A stretch of 64,000 nt of DNA from a virus, in IMG/VR virus record IMGVR_UViG_3300025030_000067, positions 26,535 to 90,534 of that record, one strand, 5' to 3'. The position numbers and the translations under genes are program-made. The notes beneath the pieces are model-generated. The model saw only the letters and a program-made list of their open reading frames with translations, did not search any database and was not told the DNA's origin. Below are positions 5,507-59,340 of the stretch, piece after piece. Positions within the stretch are counted from its first letter, which is position 1, and every line of letters begins with the position of its first letter.

Positions 5507-6946
5507 TTATGGCGCAGTGTATGTACCGCAGTTTTTGTAGATCATCACTCGTTCAGGAGCTTTGATCACGGAAACGATGTACAGCAGCAGCATGAACGGG
5601 AAGGTTGTGCCTACCTGTGGCAGCGGCATTTTGATAAGCGGTGTCATCTGAGCGATGGCGATGTCGCGTGCGTCCGGCTTGATCACCAGTGCGATGCCGT
5701 CAGAAGGTTTACCGGCTGCATCCACAGTGCTCCATTCGCCCTTGTCAACGAAGGTCAGGTCGCCGGAAGCGGTCTGCGCAACCTTGGCAATCCATTTCGC
5801 GTCAGAACCGTTTGCCAGCTTACCGCGATAGATGCGGTATCCAGTAGCGCCGGCCAGGCGGGTAACTACGATGGTCACCTTTGTGGTGGCATCAGGTACT
5901 GCAATGGCACTGGTAATGGTCCCGAGGGATTCGCCAGTGTCGTTGAACGCGGCCACTGTGTAGTAATATGTGGCGGCGAGGTGCTGACCGGCAGCGTCGT
6001 CGGCTGCTGCTGGCTGGGTTGTGATTGCTGGTGCGGCAGGAACGCCAGCCGGTGCGGCAGCCAAAGGTGCGGCAGCTTCGACTTCCTGGAGCAGAATGGA
6101 GTAGTCGAAATTGAACCGACCGAACTGCGTATCGTATCCGTCAAGGTTTTGTCCCAAGGAATACGTCGGCTGCTGTCCGCCGTCCTTGTTGAAGCGAACC
6201 ATGTTGCGGGATGCGAACTGCTGGTTCAATCCTGCGGTTACGTGTGCCGACTGCAGCACGTTGTACCCGTTGACACTGGCCTGCTTGCCGGTGGTTACCA
6301 GGGACTGGGCGGCAACGTCCAGTTCATTGAAAGTCAGGGGAGCGCCCTTCATATCAATTACGTTCGCCGAGTTGGCAGCGGTCAGTGCAGCCAAGAGCCC
6401 GTCGAAGTTTACTTCTTCGCCGTTCTCGTCCTTGATTGCAGACTGGCCGAACACCAATTCACGCTCTACTTTTTCGAGAAGCTCCAGCGTGCGGTCACGG
6501 TTCTCGCGGACGGTGGGGTCTTCGAAAGCGCCGCCATTCTGTCCAGTGATCAGCATCTGGTGAGTGATCCCGCCGAGTACGCCGAGGAACTTGTTGTAGA
6601 TACCTTTACGCTCAAACGTAGAGGTTCCGCCCTTTGGTGCCCCGCCCTGACGGAAGCCAGCGCCACCGCTGCGGTTGGAACCGAAGCCTTTGTGGACGTT
6701 GTACTCGTAGTAAGGCTGCGCACTGGGAACCTTGGGGAGCATGTTGAACAGCTTGAAGTGCTGCTCGGTGATGAGTACTTCTGTCATCACTGCATCCAGG
6801 TTTTCCAGCATGAGTGGTCCGGACTGAATGCCTCCGGGACCGCTGTTGGTGGTTGCGAGTGCTTTGCGCAGGTCGTCGACGATACCGTCACCGGTCTGGT
6901 TGTAGCCACCGCTTTTCAACATCTGATCGTAACTTTGTACTTCCAT
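5507..6946 (-). CDS. Major capsid protein with inserted Ig/Fn3-like domain
   Basis: 479 residues. It follows scaffold and prohead protease genes, the usual order for the shell protein. Residues 55-290 carry the shell core (FKLFNMLPKVPSAQPYYEYN; ERELVFGQSAIKDENGEEVNFDGLL; LDVAAQSLVTTGK). Residues about 300-415 are an Ala/Pro-rich linker and an Ig/Fn3-like domain (TYYYTVAAFNDTGES; GYRIYRGKLANGSDAKW) that would project from the capsid surface. The core resumes in the C-terminal 60 residues (IKMPLPQVGTTFPFMLLLY). The N-terminus holds LRKA (26-29) and SGPLMLENLD (42-51), a block also present in the protease, so the N-terminal arm is probably removed on maturation. Identification rests on context and pattern. 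Confidence 0.82.
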   Translation of the reverse strand: MEVQSYDQMLKSGGYNQTGDGIVDDLRKALATTNSGPGGIQSGPLMLENLDAVMTEVLITEQHFKLFNMLPKVPSAQPYYEYNVHKGFGSNRSGGAGFRQGGAPKGGTSTFERKGIYNKFLGVLGGITHQMLITGQNGGAFEDPTVRENRDRTLELLEKVERELVFGQSAIKDENGEEVNFDGLLAALTAANSANVIDMKGAPLTFNELDVAAQSLVTTGKQASVNGYNVLQSAHVTAGLNQQFASRNMVRFNKDGGQQPTYSLGQNLDGYDTQFGRFNFDYSILLQEVEAAAPLAAAPAGVPAAPAITTQPAAADDAAGQHLAATYYYTVAAFNDTGESLGTITSAIAVPDATTKVTIVVTRLAGATGYRIYRGKLANGSDAKWIAKVAQTASGDLTFVDKGEWSTVDAAGKPSDGIALVIKPDARDIAIAQMTPLIKMPLPQVGTTFPFMLLLYIVSVIKAPERVMIYKNCGTYTAP

Positions 6947-6977
6947 TTGGGTGTTCCTCCTTTTGTTGTACGGTGCT

Positions 6978-7664
6978 TTACAGACCGATTATTTTTTTGA
7001 CGTCGTCGGGGAGACGGCCAACGTCTTTGTAAGTGCCGAATATCGACAGGTGACGAGCGTCTACCTGCCCTGCCTGTACTGCTTTTGTCAGCGATTCTGA
7101 AATATCAGATATTGATTTGGTGAGTTCCTCCACCACTTCAACACCGCCGATGCCGAACTTAGCCTGGCCGGGAGATAGTGGTTTCGCTCCGAGTTCGGTT
7201 ACCGACTTCTCGATGCGTTCCATATCTTCATGGCGAGATTTGGCAAGGGATGCGATCACCTTGGCCTGCTTGATGTTCAAATTCAGCAGAGCAGCGACAG
7301 ACTTTTTCAGCGAGTCAACTTCGCCGGCAAGGCCTACCGTCATCTCCTGGACCGATTTTTCGAGAGACGCGAACGCATCGCTGGCTTTTACCAGCTCTTC
7401 ATCGTAGTTCTCGTCCTGCGTGGATTTGTCGAGGTCGGCTTCACCTTCGCCATCTCCCTCTTCTTCGCCAACGGGCTCTGCGCCTTTGTCGTCCTCGTCA
7501 CCGTCCGGCTCTTTGTGGCTTTTGGTCAACTCATCGCCGAGTTCTTCTTCCAGAGACTTGGTCAACTCGTCCAGTTCGTCTTTGGGCTCTTCTTTGACGG
7601 ACTTTTCAAGATCATCAAGCTCTTCCATCGCCTTATCTAAGGCTTCTTGATTCTCTACACTCAT
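6978..7664 (-). CDS. Acidic scaffold-like head assembly protein with L-x-K-S repeats
   Basis: 228 residues, very acidic in the first half, with a predicted coiled coil at about residues 105-150, as expected of a capsid scaffold encoded between protease and shell genes. It contains about nine evenly scattered copies of L-x-K-S/A (DLEKSV, ELTKSL, ELTKSH, DLDKST, SLEKSV, SLKKSV, RIEKSV, ELTKSI, SLTKAV). If the prohead protease cuts near this motif, the scaffold would be shredded for exit from the head. Strong ribosome-binding site AAAGGAGG. Scaffold role is inferred from position and composition. Confidence 0.68.
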   Translation of the reverse strand: MSVENQEALDKAMEELDDLEKSVKEEPKDELDELTKSLEEELGDELTKSHKEPDGDEDDKGAEPVGEEEGDGEGEADLDKSTQDENYDEELVKASDAFASLEKSVQEMTVGLAGEVDSLKKSVAALLNLNIKQAKVIASLAKSRHEDMERIEKSVTELGAKPLSPGQAKFGIGGVEVVEELTKSISDISESLTKAVQAGQVDARHLSIFGTYKDVGRLPDDVKKIIGL

Positions 7665-7691
7665 TCGCGTTTCCTCCTTTTGATTTGCTGC

Positions 7692-8648
7692 TTACGGTTT
7701 ATGTAAAATTCCCGCTGCCTTTACTAACGCTGCGAGGTCTGGCCTGTATTGGGCACCATGTATTGCTTTCCGCAGGAAGTTGATGCTCTGGCCTTTTGAA
7801 TATCCCTGACATTTTTGCATATGTTCGACGGCCCCGGTCAGACCACCGTTGAACTTCCCGGCTGAGTTAAAGCATCCGCAGTCCGTGTTGTTGCCGTACA
7901 GGATGCCGCTCATGCCTCTGTCGAGGTTTTCCAGCATGAGTGGTCCGGCTGACGTAGTGGACATCGCTTTATTCAGATCTTCGACGTCTTCTTTGCTCAT
8001 AGGTGCATGTGCTCCACAGCTGTGCCCTGGGGTATAGAGCGGGTGATCTGGTGAGCATTTGCCGCAGCAGAACGACTTACGGAAGAGCTCTATGGTGGCA
8101 TCCTCGTTAACCGGCTTGTGTGTCACTGCGAGATTGCAAACTACCGACCTCACGATCTTGTTGCCTTTGCGCTGCAGCACTCCGCCTTCTACCGAATACG
8201 CCAGTGCTCGTTTGCCTCCGGACTTTTGAAACGCGAGCCCCAGCTCCCACATCTCGTCGGCCAGCTTGGTCTGCTCGCTGGTGGTTTCTCCGGTGGGTTT
8301 GAGCAGTTCTCCTTCTACCCATAGGCCTTTGTCTCTGATCTCAGCTCTTGTGGGATAGCCGATGATGATCGGCATCTTGGCGCCTTTGACTACTCCGCAG
8401 CTCGGGCACTTGGACAGTGCATGGATGTGTCCGCATTTGAGGCACTTGGCGTAGTGGTCATAGTTCAGGTATCCGGATTTCATAAGCGGTCCGAAGTCGA
8501 TTCCGGATTGCAAGATAACTTCACCGTCCTGGTCCATGCTTTCGGTGGATGCGTATCCGCGAACGATACGGCGATCTCCACCTGCGCTCTTGCGTAGCTC
8601 CATCTCGATCGGTAACTCAAACAGGACTTGGTTGTCGGTTTCTTCCAT
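7692..8648 (-). CDS. Prohead maturation protease (S78/HK97-type) with zinc-ribbon insert and capsid-like tail
   Basis: 318 residues. Residues 25-180 match the HK97-family prohead protease core: RIVRGYASTESMDQDGEVI, then catalytic His in NYDHY (about 65) and catalytic Ser in ALAYSVEGG (about 152), and a strand ending AVTHKPVN. Right after the His is an inserted zinc ribbon (CLKCGHIHALSKCPSCG, about 69-88). The C-terminal half is not part of the family: it has Cys clusters (CCGKC, CGC) and a segment, LNKAMSTTSAGPLMLENLD, nearly identical to the capsid protein's N-terminal arm. It also carries LRKS at 18-21 and LRKA near the end. It processes capsid and internal proteins during head maturation. 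Confidence 0.85.
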   Translation of the reverse strand: MEETDNQVLFELPIEMELRKSAGGDRRIVRGYASTESMDQDGEVILQSGIDFGPLMKSGYLNYDHYAKCLKCGHIHALSKCPSCGVVKGAKMPIIIGYPTRAEIRDKGLWVEGELLKPTGETTSEQTKLADEMWELGLAFQKSGGKRALAYSVEGGVLQRKGNKIVRSVVCNLAVTHKPVNEDATIELFRKSFCCGKCSPDHPLYTPGHSCGAHAPMSKEDVEDLNKAMSTTSAGPLMLENLDRGMSGILYGNNTDCGCFNSAGKFNGGLTGAVEHMQKCQGYSKGQSINFLRKAIHGAQYRPDLAALVKAAGILHKP

Positions 8649-8666
8649 CTGCTGCCCCTAGAACAC

Positions 8667-8700
8667 AAAAAGACGGCTCCGGGTTTACCCAGATGCCGCC
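8667..8700 (-). terminator. Intrinsic terminator upstream of the protease gene
   Basis: On the minus strand a GC-rich stem (GGCGGC...CTGGGT / ACCCGG...GCCGTC, with a small internal bulge) is followed by TTTTT. It separates the protease-capsid genes from the upstream effector genes. Confidence 0.7.
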
Positions 8701-8725
8701 TATAACTGCGCTGACTCGTAGTTGC

Positions 8726-8920
8726 CTATTCGCCGTTTGCGCCTGTCAAGCGTTGTTTCGTAACTTCGATGTTGCCTTTTGGTGTTACCGTTATGTTTAT
8801 TTCCTGCCCTTTGAAGTAAAAACAGAGCGGGAAATCATCTCTTTTAAGCACTGGTATTGCCGCCGTTTCTGCCTGTTTGCTCTTTCGGAGCAGATATATC
8901 AGCTTCGGGGCTTTGTTCAT
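8726..8920 (-). CDS. Small protein with LLRKS signature (64 aa)
   Basis: Short basic protein with LLRKSKQ at residues 10-16, the same signature seen in the head and internal proteins around it; the rest is strand-like (FPLCFYFKGQEINITVTPKGNIEV). Possibly a small internal head protein. No family recognised. Confidence 0.6.
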   Translation of the reverse strand: MNKAPKLIYLLRKSKQAETAAIPVLKRDDFPLCFYFKGQEINITVTPKGNIEVTKQRLTGANGE

Positions 8921-8942
8921 TTGTTCTGATTCTAAATATCGC

Positions 8943-8955
8943 TGTAGCGTATGTC
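8943..8955 (+). promoter_or_regulatory. Dispersed operator-like motif, plus orientation
   Basis: TGTAGCGTATGTC followed by AAA, in the 46-bp gap between two minus-strand genes; orientation is opposite to the flanking genes. Confidence 0.55.
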
Positions 8956-8966
8956 AAACATTTTGC

Positions 8967-9287
8967 TTACGGTTTTCCACCATATCGCTTTTTGTCTTTA
9001 ATCCTTCTGTTTGGTCGCTTGCTGGTCATGTACGGTCGCTCGACTGTCATGATCTTTGTCACATCCTCGTCCGTGACGAACCGCCAGTACTCAGCGACGA
9101 AGTATCGGGCTGGCGTAAACCCGTTCTTGATGGTTCTGATGGCTGCTCCGTAGCCAAGGTCTACCTCTTCTGCTGTAGCTATGAGGCGGTCAAGTTCGGT
9201 CCGGTAGCATGGCGGTGGTTCGCTTTCCCATCTCTTCAGGAAGCGCAGCCAGGCATGCCTGGTGATTTCTGCTTTGCGTAGTGGCAT
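8967..9287 (-). CDS. Uncharacterised basic protein (106 aa)
   Basis: RHAWLRFLKRWESEPP near the start resembles the 'H...R...R' beginning of DUF4258-like or RelE-like folds (ITRHAWLRFLKR), and the C-terminus is very basic (KRPNRRIKDKKRYGGK). A small nuclease or interferase-like fold is possible but not shown. It is coupled with the upstream gene, overlapping it by one base. Confidence 0.55.
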   Translation of the reverse strand: MPLRKAEITRHAWLRFLKRWESEPPPCYRTELDRLIATAEEVDLGYGAAIRTIKNGFTPARYFVAEYWRFVTDEDVTKIMTVERPYMTSKRPNRRIKDKKRYGGKP

Positions 9288-10195
9288 TAGTAACGGATCC
9301 CGGCTCTAGCTTTGAGTAGGCCCATCTTCTTGACCTCTGCCATCTTGGAGTAGTAGTGCGGATCCTCGTCGAGATGTACCAATACGATTTTGGCGATCTT
9401 GGTCTCATCATGGTCCACAACGTCGGCATGCTCTTGCTCGTCGAACATGCCGTCACAGAATTCGTCCAGGTTGTACCGTTTCCAGTCAATGCCCATGCTG
9501 TCGCCCAACTGCTTACACATAGCTTCACCGGACTTTTTAAGTTCCTGCGGCATTCCTCGCCTTGCGGCAGCCAGCAGGTCTTCTGCCGTCAGAGGACGTC
9601 CGGCCTTCACCGATGCCTCGTCAATGGCTCGCTGGGCTCTGTCTCGGAGTTCGTCTTCTCTGAAAAGCCGTCCCGGACCTGTTTTGATGCCGTTGTCGGA
9701 TTCTGTAGGCGGAATATACTGGTTCCCACTCTGCAACTTTTTACCCTTCATGCTGGTCAGTGCTTCTTTGAATTCACCGAACGGCCAGATACTCATGCTG
9801 CCAAAGAACCGTGGCTCGCTGTAGGATGCGTGGAAGGCCCGGACAGCTTCTCCAGGCGTGTTCAGGCCGACGAAACACTTGTCTTCGTCGTACTCAGTGA
9901 AATCCGGGGCTCTGGTTGTATGGACTACATAGACCTCGGAATTTGCGGAGGGATCTGGCCCAACAAAGACGTCTACTGCATCTCCGTCTGTGGCCAGCGT
10001 GCCTCTTATGTAACCGTATGGTAGCGACATTCTGCTCATGCCCTGGCTGCCGTCCTGCGGATTGTGCCATTCGCGACATCGGCTGCGTCCGGTCTCGATG
10101 CTGATCGGGAGACCATTGAAGTTGACCCTGCCATGGAGCTGGCGGGATTTGATCAGTGATGGTAGGTGCTTGATACTTTTTTTGTCTTCTATCAT
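9287..10195 (-). CDS. Polyvalent-type protein: inorganic-pyrophosphatase fold plus DUF5661-like domain
   Basis: 302 residues. Residues about 25-150 match the pyrophosphatase-fold domain found in phage polyvalent proteins: GYIRGTLATDGDAVDVFVGP, then VYVVHTTRAPDFTEYDEDKC and FVGLNTPGEAVRAFHASY. The DGDAVDVFVG stretch carries the acidic metal-binding residues. Residues about 220-290 resemble DUF5661 (MCKQLGDSMGIDWKRYNLDEF ... HVD-type acidic segment ... EDPHYYSKM). LIKS (residues 14-17) and LKKS (about 218) are the head-protein signature, which suggests it is packaged in the virion. Exact substrate unknown. Confidence 0.7.
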   Translation of the reverse strand: MIEDKKSIKHLPSLIKSRQLHGRVNFNGLPISIETGRSRCREWHNPQDGSQGMSRMSLPYGYIRGTLATDGDAVDVFVGPDPSANSEVYVVHTTRAPDFTEYDEDKCFVGLNTPGEAVRAFHASYSEPRFFGSMSIWPFGEFKEALTSMKGKKLQSGNQYIPPTESDNGIKTGPGRLFREDELRDRAQRAIDEASVKAGRPLTAEDLLAAARRGMPQELKKSGEAMCKQLGDSMGIDWKRYNLDEFCDGMFDEQEHADVVDHDETKIAKIVLVHLDEDPHYYSKMAEVKKMGLLKARAGIRY

Positions 10196-11207: not shown

Positions 11208-14200
11208 CTATGCCTCCAACTGTTTAATGTGGCGTTCGAGCATGGCGCCGACTTCTGCCGAGCCTTGCTTGCCGAGCCGTTCATGACCTTTGTATTTAAG
11301 GATGTTTTTAGCTGTTTTGGCGTATTTTTCGGGGGTCGAATAATCCGGGTGGTCGGTGTTTATCCCCATGCCGCCGCGACCTTTTTTATCGTGCCGCTCG
11401 AATGCGTCGTGAAGTTCCTTGACCATCTCATGGTGAGGTTGCCCTTTTTGCGCGACATTCGCTGTTGCTCCGGATGCTGTGGTGCGAGTGTATGCAGCAT
11501 GATCGGAGTGCTGTGACTTGCGTAAGATATGCGCTACAGAGAGGGCACAACTTTTCCTGACTGGCTCCTGTACTGTTTTGGGGCTTCCGTCGCCCTTTGG
11601 TCGTTTCGACTTGATCAGGTACATTTCACGTCTCCTTCCCTTAAATAACCTCACTTGCAGTAGTCCTGAGTGATCACCCGGGAGATGATCGGCCATGGGC
11701 TCTTTGTTTTCTTTGGCCGGCATGTTTTCTTCTTTCCATTTTTCCCAATGGGTGTGGGCTCCGTGGACCTCTTCTTCTGCATCGAGTATCCGCTGCTTGG
11801 TGTGATCATCCAGTGTGCCCCAGTGGGGGAGGTGGGCGAACCGTTCCTGTCGCAGTTTATGGAGCTGGTGGCTGCTCTCGGTACGTGCCAGCTTGATTGC
11901 GTAACGCTTCACTCGGCTGTCTTCGTGGGCATCGATGTGTGCAAGTGCCCCGGATGCAGTCGTGCGGTCGTAGGCTGTGACGTGCGATTTCAGGAGCCGA
12001 ACGGCTGCGGTTTCGCTGCTGACTCGTCCTTGCCTGCCTGCTCTCGTTTGTTCTTGGGTTTCTTCTTTTTGGACTTTGCAGCTGCAGCTTTCTTCTTGTC
12101 CGCAACATCCATTGTGTCCGCATCCGCAAGAGCTTTTTTCAAGAGTTCCGACTTCTTCTTGTACTTTTCCTCGTCGCTTAATTCCGCCATTGCTTCCTCC
12201 GTGCGATTTTATCAGGTGTGTTAAGGCTGGCCGCTGTAATGACTTTTTCACACCATCATCGGAACTATTCACCTTGTCAAGAGCCTGCTTTACGACCTGC
12301 TCTTTGTTCTTTGGCTCCGCTGGTCCCGAGAACATGTCCACCTCGGGGTTTTCCCGGCTGGCAACCTCGTTTTTGATGCCGTTGCTGATGGCTCGGAAGA
12401 CGTTTTCCAACCTGTTGCGAGATCCGGCTCGGTCGCTGATCGCCAGTATCATGTCAACGGAGTGATCAGTTTTGAACTTCGGGGTGTCTCCGGTGAAGTC
12501 CAGCGAGCCAGCGTTTTTAAGAGTGTGCTCCAGCTCTGCCTTACTCTGGTTCTGGTGTGCCAGTGTGTACTCGATCGCTTCCATCATGTCCGGCACCACG
12601 TCCAGGTCGTCATGGCCTTTGATCTGGGCGAAGTCGCCGACGCACCCGTTCAGCGCCTTGAGTATGTTCCTGATCTTCGGCTTGGCGCTCTCGGCTTGCA
12701 GCTCGGTCAGCATGGAGCTGCCGTATACTTTCGTGAAGACCGCGTTCTGGATCCGCTCGATGCATTTCTTGTTCGGGTCGCCGTCAGCATCGCGCAGGCC
12801 GGCTGATTCGTTCTTGCCCAGCTTGTCGAGGAATCCATTGATGAAGTCCATATTTTCGTCGTTGTAGATTTCACCGTCTTCGTCGACCGCGAACTTCTTG
12901 AGCAGGCTGTCGTCGATTCTGGCCGAGTCATTCCATGCCTGTTCTGCTGGCGAAGAGCCGAGGTTGCCGGTGTCGTTGGCTTCTCTGGCAAACTCTGCCC
13001 GGTCGGTATTTTTGTCGTCATCGCTGCGGACTCTGACCAGTACCGGGTTTTTCATCTTCTCGACATCTTCCGGCTTTATGCCGAACGTGTCCGCTTCGCC
13101 TTTCAGCCATTCCTTGTAGTGATCCGCCAGTCCGCGCTTGTACGCTTCCGTCAGGGCGATGGTGCGACCATTGCCGCTTTCGACAGCTCCATCCTTGCCG
13201 ACGATTGGAGCGCCATGAGCAGCCATTGAACCGGCACCGAAAAGTTCCGGCTTGATATCGTTCATCATGTTTGCCATTTGCATCTGGCTCGATAGGCGTT
13301 CCCGTTCTCGGGGCTGTATCTCTTGAGGGTAAGCTCTGTTGATATGTCCCTGGATGGTGTGGGAGGTCGTCAAGTCGTCGGATTCCACCAGCGCATACTT
13401 ACTGCTGACCTCGTTCATCTTGGCCGTGTAGGCTTTGTTCTCTTTGCCCATGACGAACTTAGGCTCTTTCTTGCCGGTGTCCACGCTCTGGACTTCCTTC
13501 TTGCCCTGGAGGCTGGATATCTGCTCTTTGTCCTTGCTCGGGTCGCCACCGGCGAAGTGTACCGTGTGGCCGTCGCTATCCTTCGACATGATTATGGAGT
13601 GGCCGTCTTTCTCGTATTTCGTCGCGGTGCTGTCGCGATCGACCTGGTGACCGTAGTGCTTCAACAGCTTCTCGCGGTAGTCGTCAATGGCCGCCGTGTA
13701 GGTGTTGCTCCGGCTGGTGTTTATGTTCTTGAGTACTGAGACTGGGTCGTCGCTGGCTGCTGCGGCTTCGCGCATCTTCTTCATGCCGCGTTCGGCTGTC
13801 TGTAGAGCTCCGTTCTCCCGGTTCTTCGCCTTGATCTCTTCATGCTCCGGCATGTCTTCTTTTTTGCCGCCCTTGTGCCCTTCGATTGGCTTCACCTGAT
13901 GGACTTCGCGCTCTTTCCAGCCTCGGCTCTTGAGGTGTTCGGCCAGCTGATCGCCGTGTTTCAGTTTGGCTCCCGAGTGTATCTCTTCTCCATGCTCATT
14001 TTGGTGCTTGAGCACGTCCTGGTGCTTCTTGACACGTTTGTCGTCGTGCTCTTGCACTACCGAGCCGTCCTGCCTGGTATATTGCTTTACGTGGGACTTG
14101 ATCAGCATGGACCGATCCATGAGATTGTCGGCTCTCAGGCTCTTGGTGAATATGTCGATATCCATCAGCGCCTGTTCCCAATTATTGAACCGGATGGCCC

Positions 14201-15710
14201 GGTCGTCGAGATACACGTCCGCGATTGGCTTTCCGTCGTTGCTGTCTTCTGGTTGATCGGTTTTTTTGTTGATCTCGTCATATGGGATGTCGTTAAATCC
14301 GAGATAGCCTCGCAGTGCCGGTGTTTCCTGCCGAGTGGTGAAAATGATGATTTTCCATCCCGCTTGCTTAAGTGCCTGCATGGCTGCCGAGACTTGCGGC
14401 AACGGTTCTCCGAACGTCTCGGCCCCTTGCCATCCCTGCGAGTAATCGGCAATTACTCCGTCGAAGTCCACACAGATGGTCTTCTGGTGGATGCTTGCCG
14501 ACTTTCTGAGCGTGGTCTCTTCCCGCAGGCTTTTGAGGAAGCCGAGCAGCTCCTTGGCTCCCTTGGTCCTGGCTAGTCGTACCAGCGCCGTTTGCATATG
14601 CGACTTGACCGCCGCTGCGTCCCATCTGTCTACTGCTTCTGATCGAACACCTGTCCGGTTGAGCGCTGCCGCGATATCCTGTTCTTTGTATCCGTGGTCG
14701 AACCGACCAAGGCCGAATTTCATTTTGATTATGGCGGATGCAATCGGGTCGTCGAGTGCGTCCAGCTGCTCTGCGATACCGTTTGCGAGTCCTTCTTGTT
14801 TAGCTGCGTTCGATTCGTTGGCTGGTCCTACTGCGGCTTTTGCTGCGATATCGCGCATGCCTGTTTCGTAATCGTCTTCACCCTGGGTGTCGTATGACTG
14901 TTCTTCCTTCAGTCGGTCGTTGTTGGTGATCAGGTGGCGCATGGCCGCCGTCTTGCCGGTACGGGCTATCGTTTTGGCGACGTTGCTCTCTGATGCGGTG
15001 CCGGCCAGATAATTCTTGAACTCCTGTATGTCGGCATCGCTGGCGTTGGTTCCGGATGTTCTCAGGGCTCCGATCGCCGCCGTGATGTATTCGCTGTACA
15101 GTTCGTTCGCTGCCGGGTCATCGTTGTGGAGCACTCCGTTGGCGACAACGTAGTTCGGGTTATATCCGTTTCTGCTGGCCAGGTGTTTGAGCGTCCCTTT
15201 CATTCTGTCAACTATGGCCGGGTGCTGCAATATCTCCGCCTCTGGCATGCCAATGCGTTCCATCCCGACCAGCGCCCTGCGTGTGCTTTCCTCTGCCGTC
15301 ACACGGCCACCTGTGCCCTTTGGTGCTTTCTCCGCCGTATGCTCTTCTTCTGTCCAGATGTGGTCTCGGCTAATATCTTTTATATGCGGAGGGTTTAGTG
15401 TGTATCCTTCGCGTACTGGTTTAACTTCGTATCCGGTCTCGTGGCTGCCACCGACGATATGTCCGCGCTTTTTGCGGTTCATCTCCGGGGTGCGGTAGTA
15501 GATCTTTTCGCCATGTTTCGGCTCGGAGCTTTCTTTGCCTCGTACCTTCACCTTGCGTTGGTGTTCTGCGACTTGTGCGATGGCCCCTGACGCGAGGTGT
15601 CGTGTGCCTGCGTGTACCGTATGGACTTCTTCATGCTTGGGCGGCTGGTAGTCGAACAGGCTCATTTGTGATTTTCTGAGGTAGAAGAATTGCGTGATGT
15701 GTTTGATCAT
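11208..15710 (-). CDS. Giant polyvalent virion protein (1,500 aa): HAD and DdrB/ParB-like domains, repeated KS-HV-YTR modules
   Basis: Start chosen at the ATG five bases after GGAGG; a GTG four codons upstream overlaps that site. Domains, numbered from the GTG frame: 150-400 helical, with a region (about 325-390) resembling sigma-70 region 4 (weak); 415-510 HAD-type phosphatase (VDFDGVIADY, FTTR, DVYLDDR); 755-1140 DdrB/ParB-superfamily domain of phage polyvalent proteins (VESGNGRTIALTEAY). A Cys cluster (1199-1215) follows. L-x-K-S recurs at about 15, 405, 540, 1170, 1194, 1243, 1368 and 1400, several times followed by HV...Y-x-R-TTASGA. Polyvalent proteins are known to be carried with injected DNA and protect it; that role is inferred here. 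Confidence 0.75.
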   Translation of the reverse strand: MIKHITQFFYLRKSQMSLFDYQPPKHEEVHTVHAGTRHLASGAIAQVAEHQRKVKVRGKESSEPKHGEKIYYRTPEMNRKKRGHIVGGSHETGYEVKPVREGYTLNPPHIKDISRDHIWTEEEHTAEKAPKGTGGRVTAEESTRRALVGMERIGMPEAEILQHPAIVDRMKGTLKHLASRNGYNPNYVVANGVLHNDDPAANELYSEYITAAIGALRTSGTNASDADIQEFKNYLAGTASESNVAKTIARTGKTAAMRHLITNNDRLKEEQSYDTQGEDDYETGMRDIAAKAAVGPANESNAAKQEGLANGIAEQLDALDDPIASAIIKMKFGLGRFDHGYKEQDIAAALNRTGVRSEAVDRWDAAAVKSHMQTALVRLARTKGAKELLGFLKSLREETTLRKSASIHQKTICVDFDGVIADYSQGWQGAETFGEPLPQVSAAMQALKQAGWKIIIFTTRQETPALRGYLGFNDIPYDEINKKTDQPEDSNDGKPIADVYLDDRAIRFNNWEQALMDIDIFTKSLRADNLMDRSMLIKSHVKQYTRQDGSVVQEHDDKRVKKHQDVLKHQNEHGEEIHSGAKLKHGDQLAEHLKSRGWKEREVHQVKPIEGHKGGKKEDMPEHEEIKAKNRENGALQTAERGMKKMREAAAASDDPVSVLKNINTSRSNTYTAAIDDYREKLLKHYGHQVDRDSTATKYEKDGHSIIMSKDSDGHTVHFAGGDPSKDKEQISSLQGKKEVQSVDTGKKEPKFVMGKENKAYTAKMNEVSSKYALVESDDLTTSHTIQGHINRAYPQEIQPRERERLSSQMQMANMMNDIKPELFGAGSMAAHGAPIVGKDGAVESGNGRTIALTEAYKRGLADHYKEWLKGEADTFGIKPEDVEKMKNPVLVRVRSDDDKNTDRAEFAREANDTGNLGSSPAEQAWNDSARIDDSLLKKFAVDEDGEIYNDENMDFINGFLDKLGKNESAGLRDADGDPNKKCIERIQNAVFTKVYGSSMLTELQAESAKPKIRNILKALNGCVGDFAQIKGHDDLDVVPDMMEAIEYTLAHQNQSKAELEHTLKNAGSLDFTGDTPKFKTDHSVDMILAISDRAGSRNRLENVFRAISNGIKNEVASRENPEVDMFSGPAEPKNKEQVVKQALDKVNSSDDGVKKSLQRPALTHLIKSHGGSNGGIKRRGKVQEEVGTLEKSSCGCGHNGCCGQEESCSCKVQKEETQEQTRAGRQGRVSSETAAVRLLKSHVTAYDRTTASGALAHIDAHEDSRVKRYAIKLARTESSHQLHKLRQERFAHLPHWGTLDDHTKQRILDAEEEVHGAHTHWEKWKEENMPAKENKEPMADHLPGDHSGLLQVRLFKGRRREMYLIKSKRPKGDGSPKTVQEPVRKSCALSVAHILRKSQHSDHAAYTRTTASGATANVAQKGQPHHEMVKELHDAFERHDKKGRGGMGINTDHPDYSTPEKYAKTAKNILKYKGHERLGKQGSAEVGAMLERHIKQLEA

Positions 15711-15752
15711 CCTTGCCTCCACTGTGGTCGTAGCAATAATACTATGCTATGC

Positions 15753-27334: not shown

Positions 27335-27411
27335 TTCACATCTCCGTGTGCGTCCCGATTATTCTCTGTGCCCAGGACGGTCGGAGTTCCGTCTTTTCTC
27401 CCGCTAAAGAT

Positions 27412-27448
27412 AGGGCACAGCATGTCTTGTTAGACAATACTGTGCCCT
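27412..27448. promoter_or_regulatory. Long double-stem hairpin next to an operator motif
   Basis: AGGGCACAG (27412-27420) pairs with CTGTGCCCT (27440-27448), and inside it TGTCT pairs with AGACA across a TGTT loop. There is no T-run on the minus strand after it. The operator motif follows five bases later. It could terminate or process the transcript from the gene at 27483-27725. Confidence 0.5.
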
Positions 27449-27728: not shown

Positions 27729-27872
27729 CCTTTTGGGTTTAATGTTTGGGCGCTTTGTAGATCTGGTTTTCTAATTATGCTTGGCACGCTTCCTTGTATT
27801 GGTGTTCTTATGTGGAGTGGCTCGCTACGTCAACGTGGTTTTCTTTTGCACCTTGGCTATGCTGCTTGCTTC
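27729..27872. repeat. TIGR array, tas-distal part: four 36-bp units
   Basis: Units begin at 27729 (degenerate), 27765, 27801 and 27837. Each has a 9-bp box A (GGTTTTCTT type), 8 variable bases, a 9-bp box B (TGGCTCGCT type) and 10 variable bases. Variable pairs are ATTATGCT/TCCTTGTATT, ATGTGGAG/ACGTCAACGT and TTGCACCT/TGCTTGCTTC. The last unit overlaps the tas stop codon and its box B has decayed. The period is exactly 36 bp with constant segment lengths. This is the structure reported for TIGR arrays, which yield 36-nt dual-spacer guide RNAs. Not a CRISPR: repeats are too short and alternate with two spacers. Confidence 0.85.
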
Positions 27873-28864
27873 TCCCCGCCATGGACGTATCCCAGCTTCG
27901 CCTCGTGGTAGGGTAGCGACACCGGCAGACCCTCAATGGTCCTCCAAGCTGTGTAGAGGTCGATCAGGAACATCTTGACCATGTAGCGCATCGCGGCGTT
28001 GTGTCGGTGCCCCTTCTCGCTCACGGTTTTCTCTTTGCCCTTGTCGTTGGTTTCGGTTCGGTCCTTCCAGTTGGTGTGATTTTCCAGACGGTTCTTGTAG
28101 TCGTCATATATCGTCCGGTATTTGCTCTCACCGGCTCTCAGGAAGCTGCTGGCGAGCACTCCCATCAGTTTTGTTTTGAGGAATGGGTTGAATGTGATTC
28201 CGTTCCTGATCGCTGAGTTACCTTCTTTGTCGATATACGCTACAGTCTGGAGATGCTCTTTCCTTCGTGATCGGCCTTTGCCATCATCTGCGCAGTCGAG
28301 TCCTGCATACTTCCAGATGCTGCTCGGGTGTCTGGACTTGGTGATGTCGATCTCGCTGATGATCACTCCTGCCATGGCTGGGCCTATGCCTCTGACGCCT
28401 TCGAGGAATTCGACGTATATCGGGTAATCTTCGAGTATCTTGCCGAGCATCCGGAAGTGCCGGTTCTCTTGGGATTCGAGGTCTTTGTATTGCGATATCA
28501 GGCAGAGCTCCGTGTAGTCACTGATCACTGGATTTCCCTTGAATTTCTTTTTGCTGGGCAGGCCGTCTGCCGTCAGTAGTGAGTAGTGTTTATCGAGCAG
28601 TTGGGACACAAGCCCTGCGATCTTCTTTTCTTCTTTTTCCGTCTGTTCCAGCTCCGCGACTGCTCCGGTGGTGACCAGTTTGTTGGCATTCCGTATCCGT
28701 GCCAGCAGTTGCTGCGATTCGGCGTCGAGTCCTTCTTCTGGTTCGCTTGGTGCCTGGCCGAGTTTGGCCTTGAAGTTGCCGACTATCCTGTTTCCGGTTT
28801 GGATGCGGAGCTTCTGGATGTCGTAGCTCCCTCTTACGATGGTTTTCAGATTTCCTGCTGACAT
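27857..28864 (-). CDS. tas: Tas protein: Nop/IS110-C-terminal-like guide-RNA-binding protein without nuclease domain (TasA-like)
   Basis: 335 residues. Residues 60-150 are helical with a coiled coil. Residues 152-190 carry FLEGVRGIGPAMAGVIISEI and SSIWKYAGLD, the Transposase_20 signature of IS110 C-terminal domains, which is related to the Nop domain of box C/D RNP proteins. The N-terminal DEDD/RuvC catalytic domain of IS110 transposases is absent, and no HNH motif is seen, so this is not an active transposase. Flanking 36-bp dual-spacer arrays on both sides identify it as a TIGR-associated protein. With no fused nuclease it matches the TasA type and would bind DNA under RNA guidance. Ribosome-binding site AAGGAGG at the edge of the right array. 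An operator-like motif copy (28232-28244) lies inside the gene. Confidence 0.85.
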   Translation of the reverse strand: MSAGNLKTIVRGSYDIQKLRIQTGNRIVGNFKAKLGQAPSEPEEGLDAESQQLLARIRNANKLVTTGAVAELEQTEKEEKKIAGLVSQLLDKHYSLLTADGLPSKKKFKGNPVISDYTELCLISQYKDLESQENRHFRMLGKILEDYPIYVEFLEGVRGIGPAMAGVIISEIDITKSRHPSSIWKYAGLDCADDGKGRSRRKEHLQTVAYIDKEGNSAIRNGITFNPFLKTKLMGVLASSFLRAGESKYRTIYDDYKNRLENHTNWKDRTETNDKGKEKTVSEKGHRHNAAMRYMVKMFLIDLYTAWRTIEGLPVSLPYHEAKLGYVHGGEKQAA

Positions 28865-32502: not shown

Positions 32503-32520
32503 CAGGGGCTTTCGCCCCTG
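32503..32520. promoter_or_regulatory. GAAA-loop hairpin downstream of the variable region
   Basis: On the minus strand CAGGGGC-GAAA-GCCCCTG: a perfect 7-bp stem with a GRNA-type tetraloop, 36 bp after the stop codon of the variable gene. Hairpins or cruciforms with GRNA loops just after the variable region are a known feature of DGR targets and assist retrohoming. It could alternatively be a terminator. Confidence 0.7.
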
Positions 32521-32556
32521 CTAACCCATCAGATAACCAGAGAGTCAGATTGCAGA

Positions 32557-33531
32557 TTATCCTATAAAAGCGGGACGGAAGCCGACGTAGCTGTACACGT
32601 TGGAGCGCTGATTGATCAAGCTCAAGGCAGCCAGGCCAGCATTCGAGGAGTAGCTCCAACCGCCACCCCGGAGCGGCATGGCCTCGAAGTTTTCGGTGTT
32701 ATCGGCCCATACGTGGCCTGGTATGCCGAGGCTGCCGTCGCAGGGACACAGCAGCGCCTGGTAGATGGATGCCGGGAGGGGTTGATCTGCCTTGGCGGTG
32801 ATTTCGGCGAATGGCGTGCTCAACCAGTCTCTGTCGGTGATCTTGTTGGAGATCTCAATGTCGCTCTTTCCGTTGATGACTGCACCGGTTTCCGCCCATG
32901 CTGATTCTTTGGCTGTGAATTCGTTGTTTCTCGGCATGATGATCTTGCCACTGGCCAGCTTCAGTCCGTCCACCCATTCCCAGACGTTGCCCACCAGATC
33001 GGCAATCCCGTGCATTGTGCCATCGTGGCGCCATGTATCCGGTCCTGATCCGGTCAGGGTCTTGCCGCCGTCGCCCGATGGCATGCCGGACTCTTCTTCA
33101 TTCTTGTGCGACTTGCCATAATCGGTGTTGCCGTGCGCGTCTCCGTATCCGTTTTTTGCCATCCAGAGTGCGACTGCTGCCCACTCCCAGTTGGTGAGCA
33201 TGTGGAAGCCTGGGCCAGCGGCTATGCAGGCCGCTCGTGCGTTGTCGAAGTTGATGCCGGTTTTAGGGGTCTGGTAGGGGAGTGAGATCGCTTGGCCGTT
33301 GCTGATGATGGCCTGGTAGGTGCCGATGTGGATCTCGCTCTTTTCGACGCCGTTGACGATGAAGGCCGGGTGCAGTCCAGTTCCCATGCTTTCGCTGATG
33401 TCCTCGCACTTGAACGCTGGTATCACGTTGAAGTATGACGGGTAGCCCTTGGTGGTCCGCCTGACGGTTTGCTTGCCCTCTGATGCTCTTTCTACCTGTT
33501 CCCTCAGTGAATCCTTGATGATGATGTTCAT
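32557..33531 (-). CDS. DGR-type variable protein with FGE-sulfatase/C-type-lectin fold
   Basis: 324 residues. Residues 80-324 show the formylglycine-generating-enzyme (C-type lectin) fold: FHMLTNWEWAAVALW, HGIADLVGNVWEWVDGL and the ending LRGGGWSYSSNAGLAALSL ... SNVYSYVGFRPAF. This C-terminus is the canonical variable region of diversity-generating-retroelement targets. The Asn, Ser and Tyr codons (AAT, AAC, TAC, AGC) fall where adenine-templated changes occur. A GAAA hairpin follows. Such proteins are usually receptor-binding tips. No reverse transcriptase, Avd or template repeat is seen in the window. Start has AAAAGGAGG. Confidence 0.85.
   Translation of the reverse strand: MNIIIKDSLREQVERASEGKQTVRRTTKGYPSYFNVIPAFKCEDISESMGTGLHPAFIVNGVEKSEIHIGTYQAIISNGQAISLPYQTPKTGINFDNARAACIAAGPGFHMLTNWEWAAVALWMAKNGYGDAHGNTDYGKSHKNEEESGMPSGDGGKTLTGSGPDTWRHDGTMHGIADLVGNVWEWVDGLKLASGKIIMPRNNEFTAKESAWAETGAVINGKSDIEISNKITDRDWLSTPFAEITAKADQPLPASIYQALLCPCDGSLGIPGHVWADNTENFEAMPLRGGGWSYSSNAGLAALSLINQRSNVYSYVGFRPAFIG
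32566..32670 (-). other. Presumed DGR variable region (VR)
   Basis: Covers the codons from LRGGGW to GFRPA at the end of the variable protein gene. Boundaries are approximate, since the template repeat needed to set them is not in the window. Confidence 0.65.
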
Positions 33532-39027: not shown

Positions 39028-40499
39028 TCACTTCTTTGCTCTCTGCTTCTCAACCTCAGAGAAAGGTATCAGCTTCCCCTTGTCGCCCATCAGCATCGGT
39101 TCCTCGCCGCAGTAGTCGAAGTATCGCTTGAGGGATGCTTGTGCATACCCTGGACTGAACTCCATGCCTCTGCCTTTGCGGCCTGATTTGCGGCAGGTGA
39201 CGATGGTGGTGCAGAGCCCGAAAAGAGGTCGAGCACGATCTCTCCGGGGCGGCTGCTTGATCTCACGTTCCGCTCCACGAGTCTGACTGGCTTCATGGTC
39301 GGGTGTATTTCGCTCTTGCCTGGCTTGTCGATTCTGATGATTGTTGTGGGCTGTGCGTTACGGACTTCTGTCAGGTGTGCAATGAGCTGTTTCTTGTCGA
39401 GCTTGGAGAGATCGAGGTCATCGTCGATCACGGTGGTCTGCGTGAAGTCTCCGGCGAAGTAGTGAGCTGCCCCTGACTTCCATCCGTACAGGATTGGCTC
39501 GTGCTTGTTGTTGTAGTCGCTGCGTGCGAGTACTGCTGCGTTCTTTACCCATATCAGGCATTGCTTCCACATGATGCCTGGTGTGTTGCAGATCGCGTTG
39601 CGGAAAACGTCTCCGACCCCGCCACCTTCGGCATGAGCTACGTAGAAGCATCCACCTGCCTTGAGAGCGTGGTGCATGGACGAGAATACCGCCATGAGGA
39701 ACTTGCGGAAATCTTCCTCGTTGAGGTTGTCGTTGTCTATTTTTCCTGCCTTGGTTTCGTAGGCAATGTTGTAGGGTGGATCCATCCAGACGCAATCGGC
39801 CTTATCTCCCATCATCAGCTTGTCGATGTCAGCGATGCTTGTGGAGTCGCCACAGAGCAGGCGGTTCTCCCCGAGTACCCAGAGGTCTCCGAGTTTGACG
39901 AATGGTTCTGGCACCGGTTCCACGTCAGGGTCTTCTTCGCCGAGCGTTTCTTTCTTGCCAGCGTCCAGTAGGTCTTTCAGTTCCTGTTCGTCGAATCCGG
40001 TCAGGCTCATGTCGTATCCGCTGTCGTTCAACTCCTGGAGTAGTTGCGCCAGCAGGTCATCGTCGAATTCTCCACCGTGTTGGTTGGCTGCAATGTTGGC
40101 CGCACGTTCCTTTGGTTCGTCCCAGGCTACTTCTCTGTATGAGAATTTGCCGTCTGGGGTTTCGATATAACCGATTGCGACGGTTCCGGTGTTGTCGGAG
40201 TGTTCTTCTTTGGTGATCGGCCATGACGAGTCAAGATTTTTCCCGCGCTGGTGTCCTGATACCAATCGTCCGGTTGTGCGGTTGAATACTACCCCTCCCA
40301 GATCGCCGAATTCCTTCATTGCCGCATTGAGCATCTCAAGCTTTTGTGGGGTGATCGTTCTGGGGTTGTATCCGCTGGAGCGAAGGTCAGCCGCAGTCGT
40401 TGGTGACATCTCTGTTGCCGGGGTCGCGAGGTTGCCCACGGTTTTATCTGGATCTTTCTTGCGTTTTACTTTGCTGCGTATCTTGGCTGTTACTGTCAT
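39028..40499 (-). pseudogene. ParB-domain / adenine or cytosine-N4 DNA methyltransferase, broken by a 1-base deletion near 39212
   Basis: Residues 1-165 are a ParB-like nuclease domain (GVVFNRTTGRLVSGHQR). From about 215 it is a beta-class methylase: DCVWMDPPYNIAYE (DPPY), WVKNAAVLARSDY, and EIVLDLFSGS (SAM motif I). The frame then changes to nonsense (APPSSPAANQ). The other frame continues correctly with TTIVTCRKSGRKGRGMEFSP and GYAQASLKRYFDYCGEEPM, ending at a TGA at 39028. One G missing in GGCTCT-GCACC explains it. Either a sequencing error or a true frameshift removes the last 60 residues and motif X. Confidence 0.85.
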
Positions 40500-41086
40500 G
40501 GTGATGGCTCCTTTGATATGTCTGCTGCAAATGTGAGGTCTGACAGGTATATTCCTTTGGTGGCGTTGCTGTATCTGCCTTGCAGGTACAGCCTGACCAT
40601 TTCAAGGCTTATTTCGAGCTCCTCTGAGATGCTTTTATTGCTTTTGCCTGCTTCCTTCATTTCAGCGATCTGCACTTTCTTGATCACCGCCTCTTCTGCG
40701 TAATACTGCCCCTTAAACTCGTCTGACCTGAAAGTGCGGCATTGTTTTATGTCGCCCTGTCTCATGTATCCAATGGTTTTCCTGTCCAGGGCTACGAGAG
40801 CGAATATATCGACGTCTTGAGAGGTGTATCTCTTCTGTTTGTTTTTGCCGTTGGTCTTGATGTGGAAGAAGTAGGCGGGTGTGCTTTCGCAAACTCGGTT
40901 GGCTGATGGATTCTTTTTTGCGGCCAGCGTGGTCTTAACTTGGATCTTGAGCAGTCTGCTATCTACATCTACCACCACGTCGTACGGGAGCCCTTGCTCT
41001 GACGGGTAGGCCACATATCCTTGCAGGATCAGGTCTGCGCATACGAGGTATTCACCTGCTTTGCCGATTTGTAATGCGTTTTCCAT
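40496..41086 (-). CDS. PD-(D/E)XK endonuclease-like protein (196 aa)
   Basis: IGKAGEYLVCADLILQGYVAYPSEQGLPYDVVVDVDSRLLKIQVKTT shows the E...D...Q-x-K catalytic pattern (Glu about 12, Asp about 36, QVK about 49-51) of the group-I-intron-associated PD-(D/E)XK family. Residues 140-175 (VQIAEMKEAGKSNKSISEELEISLEMVRLYL) form a C-terminal helix-turn-helix. Together with the adjacent GIY-YIG gene it suggests a homing hot-spot. ATGA overlap with the methylase gene. Confidence 0.75.
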   Translation of the reverse strand: MENALQIGKAGEYLVCADLILQGYVAYPSEQGLPYDVVVDVDSRLLKIQVKTTLAAKKNPSANRVCESTPAYFFHIKTNGKNKQKRYTSQDVDIFALVALDRKTIGYMRQGDIKQCRTFRSDEFKGQYYAEEAVIKKVQIAEMKEAGKSNKSISEELEISLEMVRLYLQGRYSNATKGIYLSDLTFAADISKEPSP

Positions 41087-59044: not shown

Positions 59045-59340
59045 ACTGACGGGTGGGTCGCTGCCCTCCCTTAACCGGTGAGCCCAATAGTTGGGGAACT
59101 TCTGCTGATTGGCCAAGCCCTCGGGGTAGCAGATGCAAATACGGGTCGAACAGTGGGTGGCGTGACAGCTCGGAAAGACGAGCCTTGATTTTTACAGTTT
59201 GCAGCGTGGCCCAAGGACACCGAAACGGGCTTCTATCCGTGGCGTAAGCCCCGCTCTGCCGGGAGTCATGACCTCGTATCGGGCATTACCGGAATTCTGG
59301 TCCAAGTTGTGTTGGTATAAGCCACGCTGCAATTCATTAT
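59045..59340 (+). ncRNA. Candidate structured RNA in a 320-bp gene-free gap
   Basis: No credible gene. A 12-bp perfect inverted repeat (TTGCAGCGTGGC at 59199-59210, its complement at 59321-59332) closes a 110-base interior with GC-rich inner stems. Before it, TCTGCT...AGCAGA and GCTCG-GAAAGA-CGAGC followed by TTGATTTTT form more hairpins; the latter could be the terminator of the upstream operon. Downstream come AT-rich bases and TATGGAGG for the next gene. It resembles the candidate RNA at 15816 in style, not in sequence. Confidence 0.5.

Follow-up and report, generated by a model that had tools for sequence, protein, structure and literature searches.

A probable remote second target of a complete phage diversity-generating retroelement, with a variable region diversified in nature

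The diversity-generating retroelement (DGR) of Bordetella phage BPP-1 has a single adjacent target, mtd. Other arrangements have also been described. In four inducible gut prophage species, second variable regions (VRs) are found distal from the reverse transcriptase (RT) cassette (PMC12629997, Nature 2025), and remote variable proteins, proposed to be diversified in trans, are known from the bacterial chromosomes of cyanobacteria, Treponema and Thiohalocapsa (PMC7517822, PMC4891356, PMC10907252). The DGR survey of Roux et al. was unable to detect targets remote from the RT (PMC8144416). Downstream of their VR, phage DGR targets carry a GC-rich hairpin whose 4-nt loop conforms to GRNA (PMC3240598), and TaqVP (PDB 5VF4) is the variable protein of a Thermus aquaticus prophage DGR (PMC6328139). 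Here we analysed a 64,000-nt stretch of the virus record IMGVR_UViG_3300025030_000067 (hereafter the window), which comprises bases 26,535–90,534 of a 90,534-bp IMG/VR contig (G000). The gene at window positions 32557–33531 is very probably a target, the second and remote one, of a complete DGR carried by the same phage genome.

The cassette and its remote target

The initial annotation described the gene as a DGR target ending in an FGE/C-lectin VR, found no RT, Avd or template repeat (TR) in the window and proposed that the retroelement lies in an unsequenced part of the phage, acts from the host or has been lost. The open reading frame (ORF) and the VR are indeed at the claimed place, and the window does lack the other components. 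However, none of the three proposed explanations corresponds to the actual case. An RVT_1 search of the remaining contig and a search with the VR as a query, which detected two additional copies, revealed a complete cassette within the first 26 kb of the contig, outside the window and ~51 kb from the VR of the window gene (VR2). Thus, a lost, host-encoded or unsequenced DGR is ruled out, and because a complete DGR (VR1, Avd, TR and RT) is present elsewhere on the same contig, the window gene can be considered its second target. The features of the cassette (contig coordinates) and of the remote locus (window coordinates) are as follows.

Contig 6489–9307, minus strand: complete DGR cassette; transcription order VR1 target, Avd, TR, RT
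Contig 9307–8243, minus strand: RT-adjacent VR1 target gene, 354 aa
Contig 8166–7831, minus strand: Avd (bAvd, 8.8e-33; PHROG 'Avd protein of DGR', 5.4e-39)
Contig 7821–7712, minus strand: TR, 110 bp, 25 adenines
Contig 7541–6489, minus strand: RT (RVT_1, 3.2e-18; PHROG 1423, reverse transcriptase, 1.8e-130)
Window 32557–33531, minus strand: remote DGR target gene; VR2 protein of 324 aa, predicted FGE-type C-type-lectin-fold variable protein, PHROG 2889
Window 32569–32678 (contig 59103–59212), minus strand: VR2, 110 bp, defined by homology to TR
Window 32521–32568, minus strand: ORF end and flank past the TR homology (putative initiation of mutagenic homing (IMH) region and spacer); a single mismatch with the VR1 flank in the 56 bases past the VR
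Window 32503–32520, minus strand: target hairpin/cruciform with a 7-bp GC-rich stem and GAAA loop

The RT corresponds to the single RVT_1 match on the contig (6717–7328) and, as read from the contig DNA, contains YMDD and IGALTSQ, the latter conforming to IGxxxSQ, a typical motif of DGR RTs. TR matches are confined to contig positions 7712–7821, 8255–8365 and 59103–59212, and a TR query with word size 7 found no additional target or template there. Upstream of the VR1 gene are baseplate genes and a gene for a tail-fibre-like protein.

The ORF of the window gene ends, at the C-terminus of its product, in MPLRGGGWSYSSNAGLAALSLINQRSNVYSYVGFRPAFIG. The VR extent estimated in the initial annotation (32566–32670) is close to the TR-defined one. 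The annotated hairpin is confirmed: a perfect 7-bp stem with a GAAA loop (sense strand CAGGGGC-GAAA-GCCCCTG) lies exactly 36 bp past the stop codon. A scan of the entire 90.5-kb contig found no other perfect GC-rich stem of 7 bp closed by a 4-nt loop, and the loop agrees with the 5'-GRNA rule (PMC3240598). Past their 3' ends, the VRs are flanked by CTTTTATAGGATAA and TR by the different CTCTCGCCTGTTGC, as expected for a putative IMH and IMH*, respectively.

The differences between TR and the VRs are adenine-specific. All 7 mismatches of VR1 are at TR adenines (hypergeometric p = 1.5e-5), as are all 11 mismatches of VR2 (p = 1e-8). An RT with a nearby imperfect copy of the VR that differs only at adenines is therefore present; the initial annotation had suggested looking for one differing mainly at adenines. 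Furthermore, TR is 100% identical in four records (G000, L007, L008 and L009). Mismatches to TR number 13–19 in the VR1s of L007, L008 and L009 and in the VR2s from L034, L035 and L036, with at most one non-adenine site per VR.

Diversification of the remote variable region and comparison of the two targets

The related loci L034 and L035 display no differences in 1,901 bp outside the VR (L034 5297–7307), yet there are 24 differences inside the 110-bp VR2. Of these, 19 are firm (18 at TR adenines and 1 elsewhere) and 5 are Ns. Therefore, the remote target is diversified in nature, and the adenine-site variation of the 3' end that the initial annotation proposed to examine is seen between near-identical relatives. 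Four of the five uncalled bases in VR2 of L035 are at adenine sites, and L037, identical to L034 apart from one distant base and a broken VR2, has an assembly gap inside this region. Such uncalled bases and gaps are what variation of the VR within the sampled population would be expected to produce. Of the codon changes in the gene body between G000 and L034, 39 are synonymous and 7 nonsynonymous, which suggests that the scaffold is conserved while the VR is rewritten.

Outside the VRs, the two targets of G000 are only distantly similar. Identity between the gene bodies is 56% over all nucleotides and 40% at third positions, whereas third codon positions within the VR agree at 40 out of 40. 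Indeed, VR1 and VR2 agree at all non-adenine TR sites and in the next 32 bases, and the 56 bases past the VRs, which are outside TR, have one mismatch between the loci. In the phylogenetic tree of target gene bodies without VRs, the VR1 type forms one clade (100/99) and the remote type a separate one (100/100), which also includes RT-adjacent targets of other phages, namely, L013, L014 and two tandem targets in L039. The separate clades and the 56% body identity rule out recent duplication of the VR1 gene. The simplest reading is that these are an old target pair, one member of which is now far from the cassette in this lineage, with the shared TR still rewriting its VR.

These comparisons bear on two alternatives to the window gene being an active remote target. 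The first treats VR2 as a fossil that was once a target but has ceased to be diversified, and that resembles VR1 as a result of past duplication. Its large distance from the RT is in line with this possibility, as are the three non-adenine differences from the current TR retained by VR2 of the diverged relative G001 (see below), as if homing occurred less often there. Nevertheless, a fossil is very improbable, because the nearly identical bodies of L034, L035 and L037 have VRs that differ at adenine sites. Moreover, since the bodies have diverged into separate clades with 56% nucleotide identity and the VRs still agree at all non-adenine sites, VR identity is not residual from duplication.

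The second alternative, that VR2 varies through recombination with VR1 copies (gene conversion) and not through direct retrohoming at the remote site, appears improbable, although less so than a fossil. Among the relatives, alleles of the 56-bp post-VR flank, which lies outside TR, are common to both loci, suggesting exchange. However, no VR2 in the set equals any VR1 in the set, and VR2 has its own GAAA hairpin, which is conserved in L034–L037 and is unlike that of VR1, implying that conversion does not span the whole target. Given the shared flank alleles, gene conversion may add to homing rather than replace it.

With its 9-bp stem and 7-nt loop (GGTTTCT), the VR1 hairpin falls outside the 4-nt GRNA rule. 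In BPP-1, enlarging the loop by just 2 nt reduced activity to near background (PMC3240598). Because VR1, with its 7-nt loop, varies at adenine sites across relatives, the BPP-1 loop rule may not hold here. It is possible, albeit tentatively so, that a single phage DGR serves two old paralogous lectin targets 51 kb apart with different hairpins (9 bp/7 nt and 7 bp/GAAA), that each target is diversified at its own rate, set by hairpin, position or orientation, and that exchange between the loci keeps the 3' flanks alike. If true, such a system would violate the 4-nt GRNA loop rule known from BPP-1. Regarding the hairpins of other targets, RT-adjacent ones (contig ~8185–8209, minus strand, L002; also L007, L008, L009, L099 and L013) have an 8–9-bp stem and a 7-nt GGTTTCT, GGTTGTT or GGTTTTT loop. 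In G001, a GAAGA loop is found at both targets.

Layout in related genomes

G001 is a diverged 79.9-kb relative from another sample. It is collinear with G000 over 69 ORF matches, which include overlapping reading frames, so that the number of genes is smaller. The two genomes share the order terminase, remote target, portal, head, baseplate, VR1, Avd and RT, and in G001 the remote VR is 63 kb from its own TR, on the same strand. G001 TR differs from VR1 at 8 sites, all adenines, and from VR2 at 13 sites, 10 of which are adenines. As the G000 contig is metagenomic and linear, it might be a chimera or contain two prophages, with the RT and the window gene belonging to different genomes. This is hardly credible, however, since G001 is collinear end to end and carries both targets on one contig, an arrangement that rules out chimeric assembly, and VR2 matches the TR of its own contig at every non-adenine site.

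The 3' part of the G001 TR (L010) is adenine-poor (GGCGCGAGC) and identical to G001 VR1 in this region, whereas G001 VR2 (L038) looks derived from an older, adenine-rich TR. The G001 TR may thus have been overwritten by a VR copy, with VR2 representing a record of the earlier template. Another relative, G002 (17.2 kb), has retained a VR1-type target and hairpin (L099:389–631, minus strand) and lacks Avd, TR and RT; the gene located after RT in G000 here comes almost immediately after the hairpin. The 11 sites at which the VR of G002 departs from the G000 TR are all adenines, suggesting that either the cassette loss was recent or diversification takes place in trans.

Among named phages, no close DNA relatives were found (at most 11% of the query covered), and all protein matches are below 60% identity. 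The nearest RT found in a bacterial genome is that of a Geobacter metagenome-assembled genome (MAG; 70%), which has tandem targets beside its DGR with 54–55% identity to the window protein. No remote target was seen in bacterial genomes with related RTs, where matches to the window protein adjoin the DGR.

Other features of the window, all on the minus strand, include the following.

Window 27353–27420: int-alpA RNA (RF02996, 38.8 bits), adjoining an IS110-like transposase ORF (27857–28864); both between portal and remote target
Window 11208–15722: 1,504-aa protein with a PHROG match to phosphoheptose isomerase (residues 402–519) and large unknown domains
Window 39090–41086: DNA methyltransferase (ParB-like PHROG match in the N-terminal part) and PD-(D/E)XK endonuclease-like protein, upstream of terminase

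Predicted role, proposed mechanism and known systems

The window protein is predicted to have an FGE-subtype C-type lectin fold with a C-terminal VR. Its AlphaFold model (pLDDT 93.8, pTM 0.93) matches TaqVP best among PDB structures (5VF4, full length, TM 0.90, 38% identity), followed by TvpA and Mtd. Consistently, profile comparison with TaqVP gave a match of 1.4e-109, and PF03781 was matched at 1.5e-6. Membership in the variable-protein family and a match to PHROG 5302 (tail) suggest a receptor-binding role, and the protein probably serves the virion as a second variable adhesin, a receptor-binding lectin.

According to the proposed mechanism, the RT, together with Avd, would copy the TR transcript with errors at adenines, and the adenine-mutated cDNA would replace VR1 in the adjacent target as well as VR2 in the window gene, at a distance of 51 kb. 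Recognition of VR2 might rely on its homology to TR, on the GAAA hairpin and on the 3' flank that it has in common with VR1 (putative IMH). How homing proceeds chemically, that it makes use of IMH and hairpin and that the protein acts as an adhesin are what we infer. Several points weigh against the window gene being a homing target that encodes an adhesin: retrohoming itself is deduced from sequence, the phage is uncultured and represented by a linear contig, G001 VR2 has three non-adenine mismatches with its own TR, the gene is located between terminase and portal and not beside tail genes, and the assignment to the virion as an adhesin is by homology only.

Distal second VRs of phages are thus already known, and the present case adds a clear, well-supported example. 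Because large metagenomic surveys would, by their own account, miss targets that are not RT-adjacent (PMC8144416), such well-supported remote phage targets show that target lists are incomplete. The lineage also offers a clean natural comparison, with one TR and RT and two varying targets that have different hairpins and positions, which allows one to address whether the rate of diversification depends on the hairpin loop or on position.

The likeness to the gut prophages (PMC12629997) lies in the distal second VR, with, in the present genome, a DNA methyltransferase gene (window 39090–40499) 5.5 kb upstream of the remote target. The differences are that here the nearest RT found in a bacterial genome is from the Geobacter MAG and not from a gut isolate, and that natural adenine-site diversification of the remote VR is evident between near-identical relatives. 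With TaqVP, the window protein shares the full-length predicted fold, profile homology, the FGE-type C-type lectin and the C-terminal VR, but the DGR of TaqVP is compact, with the target next to the RT, whereas the window protein is encoded 51 kb from the RT. The remote variable proteins of cyanobacteria, Treponema and Thiohalocapsa are likewise encoded away from the RT, with a related TR at another genomic position; theirs, however, are chromosomal, whereas here everything is within one phage genome. Finally, compared to the BPP-1 system (mtd/avd/TR/brt), the RT is homologous to brt (36% identity), and Avd, TR and a GC-rich GAAA-loop hairpin past the target VR are in common, but here there are two targets, the adjacent one having a 7-nt hairpin loop.
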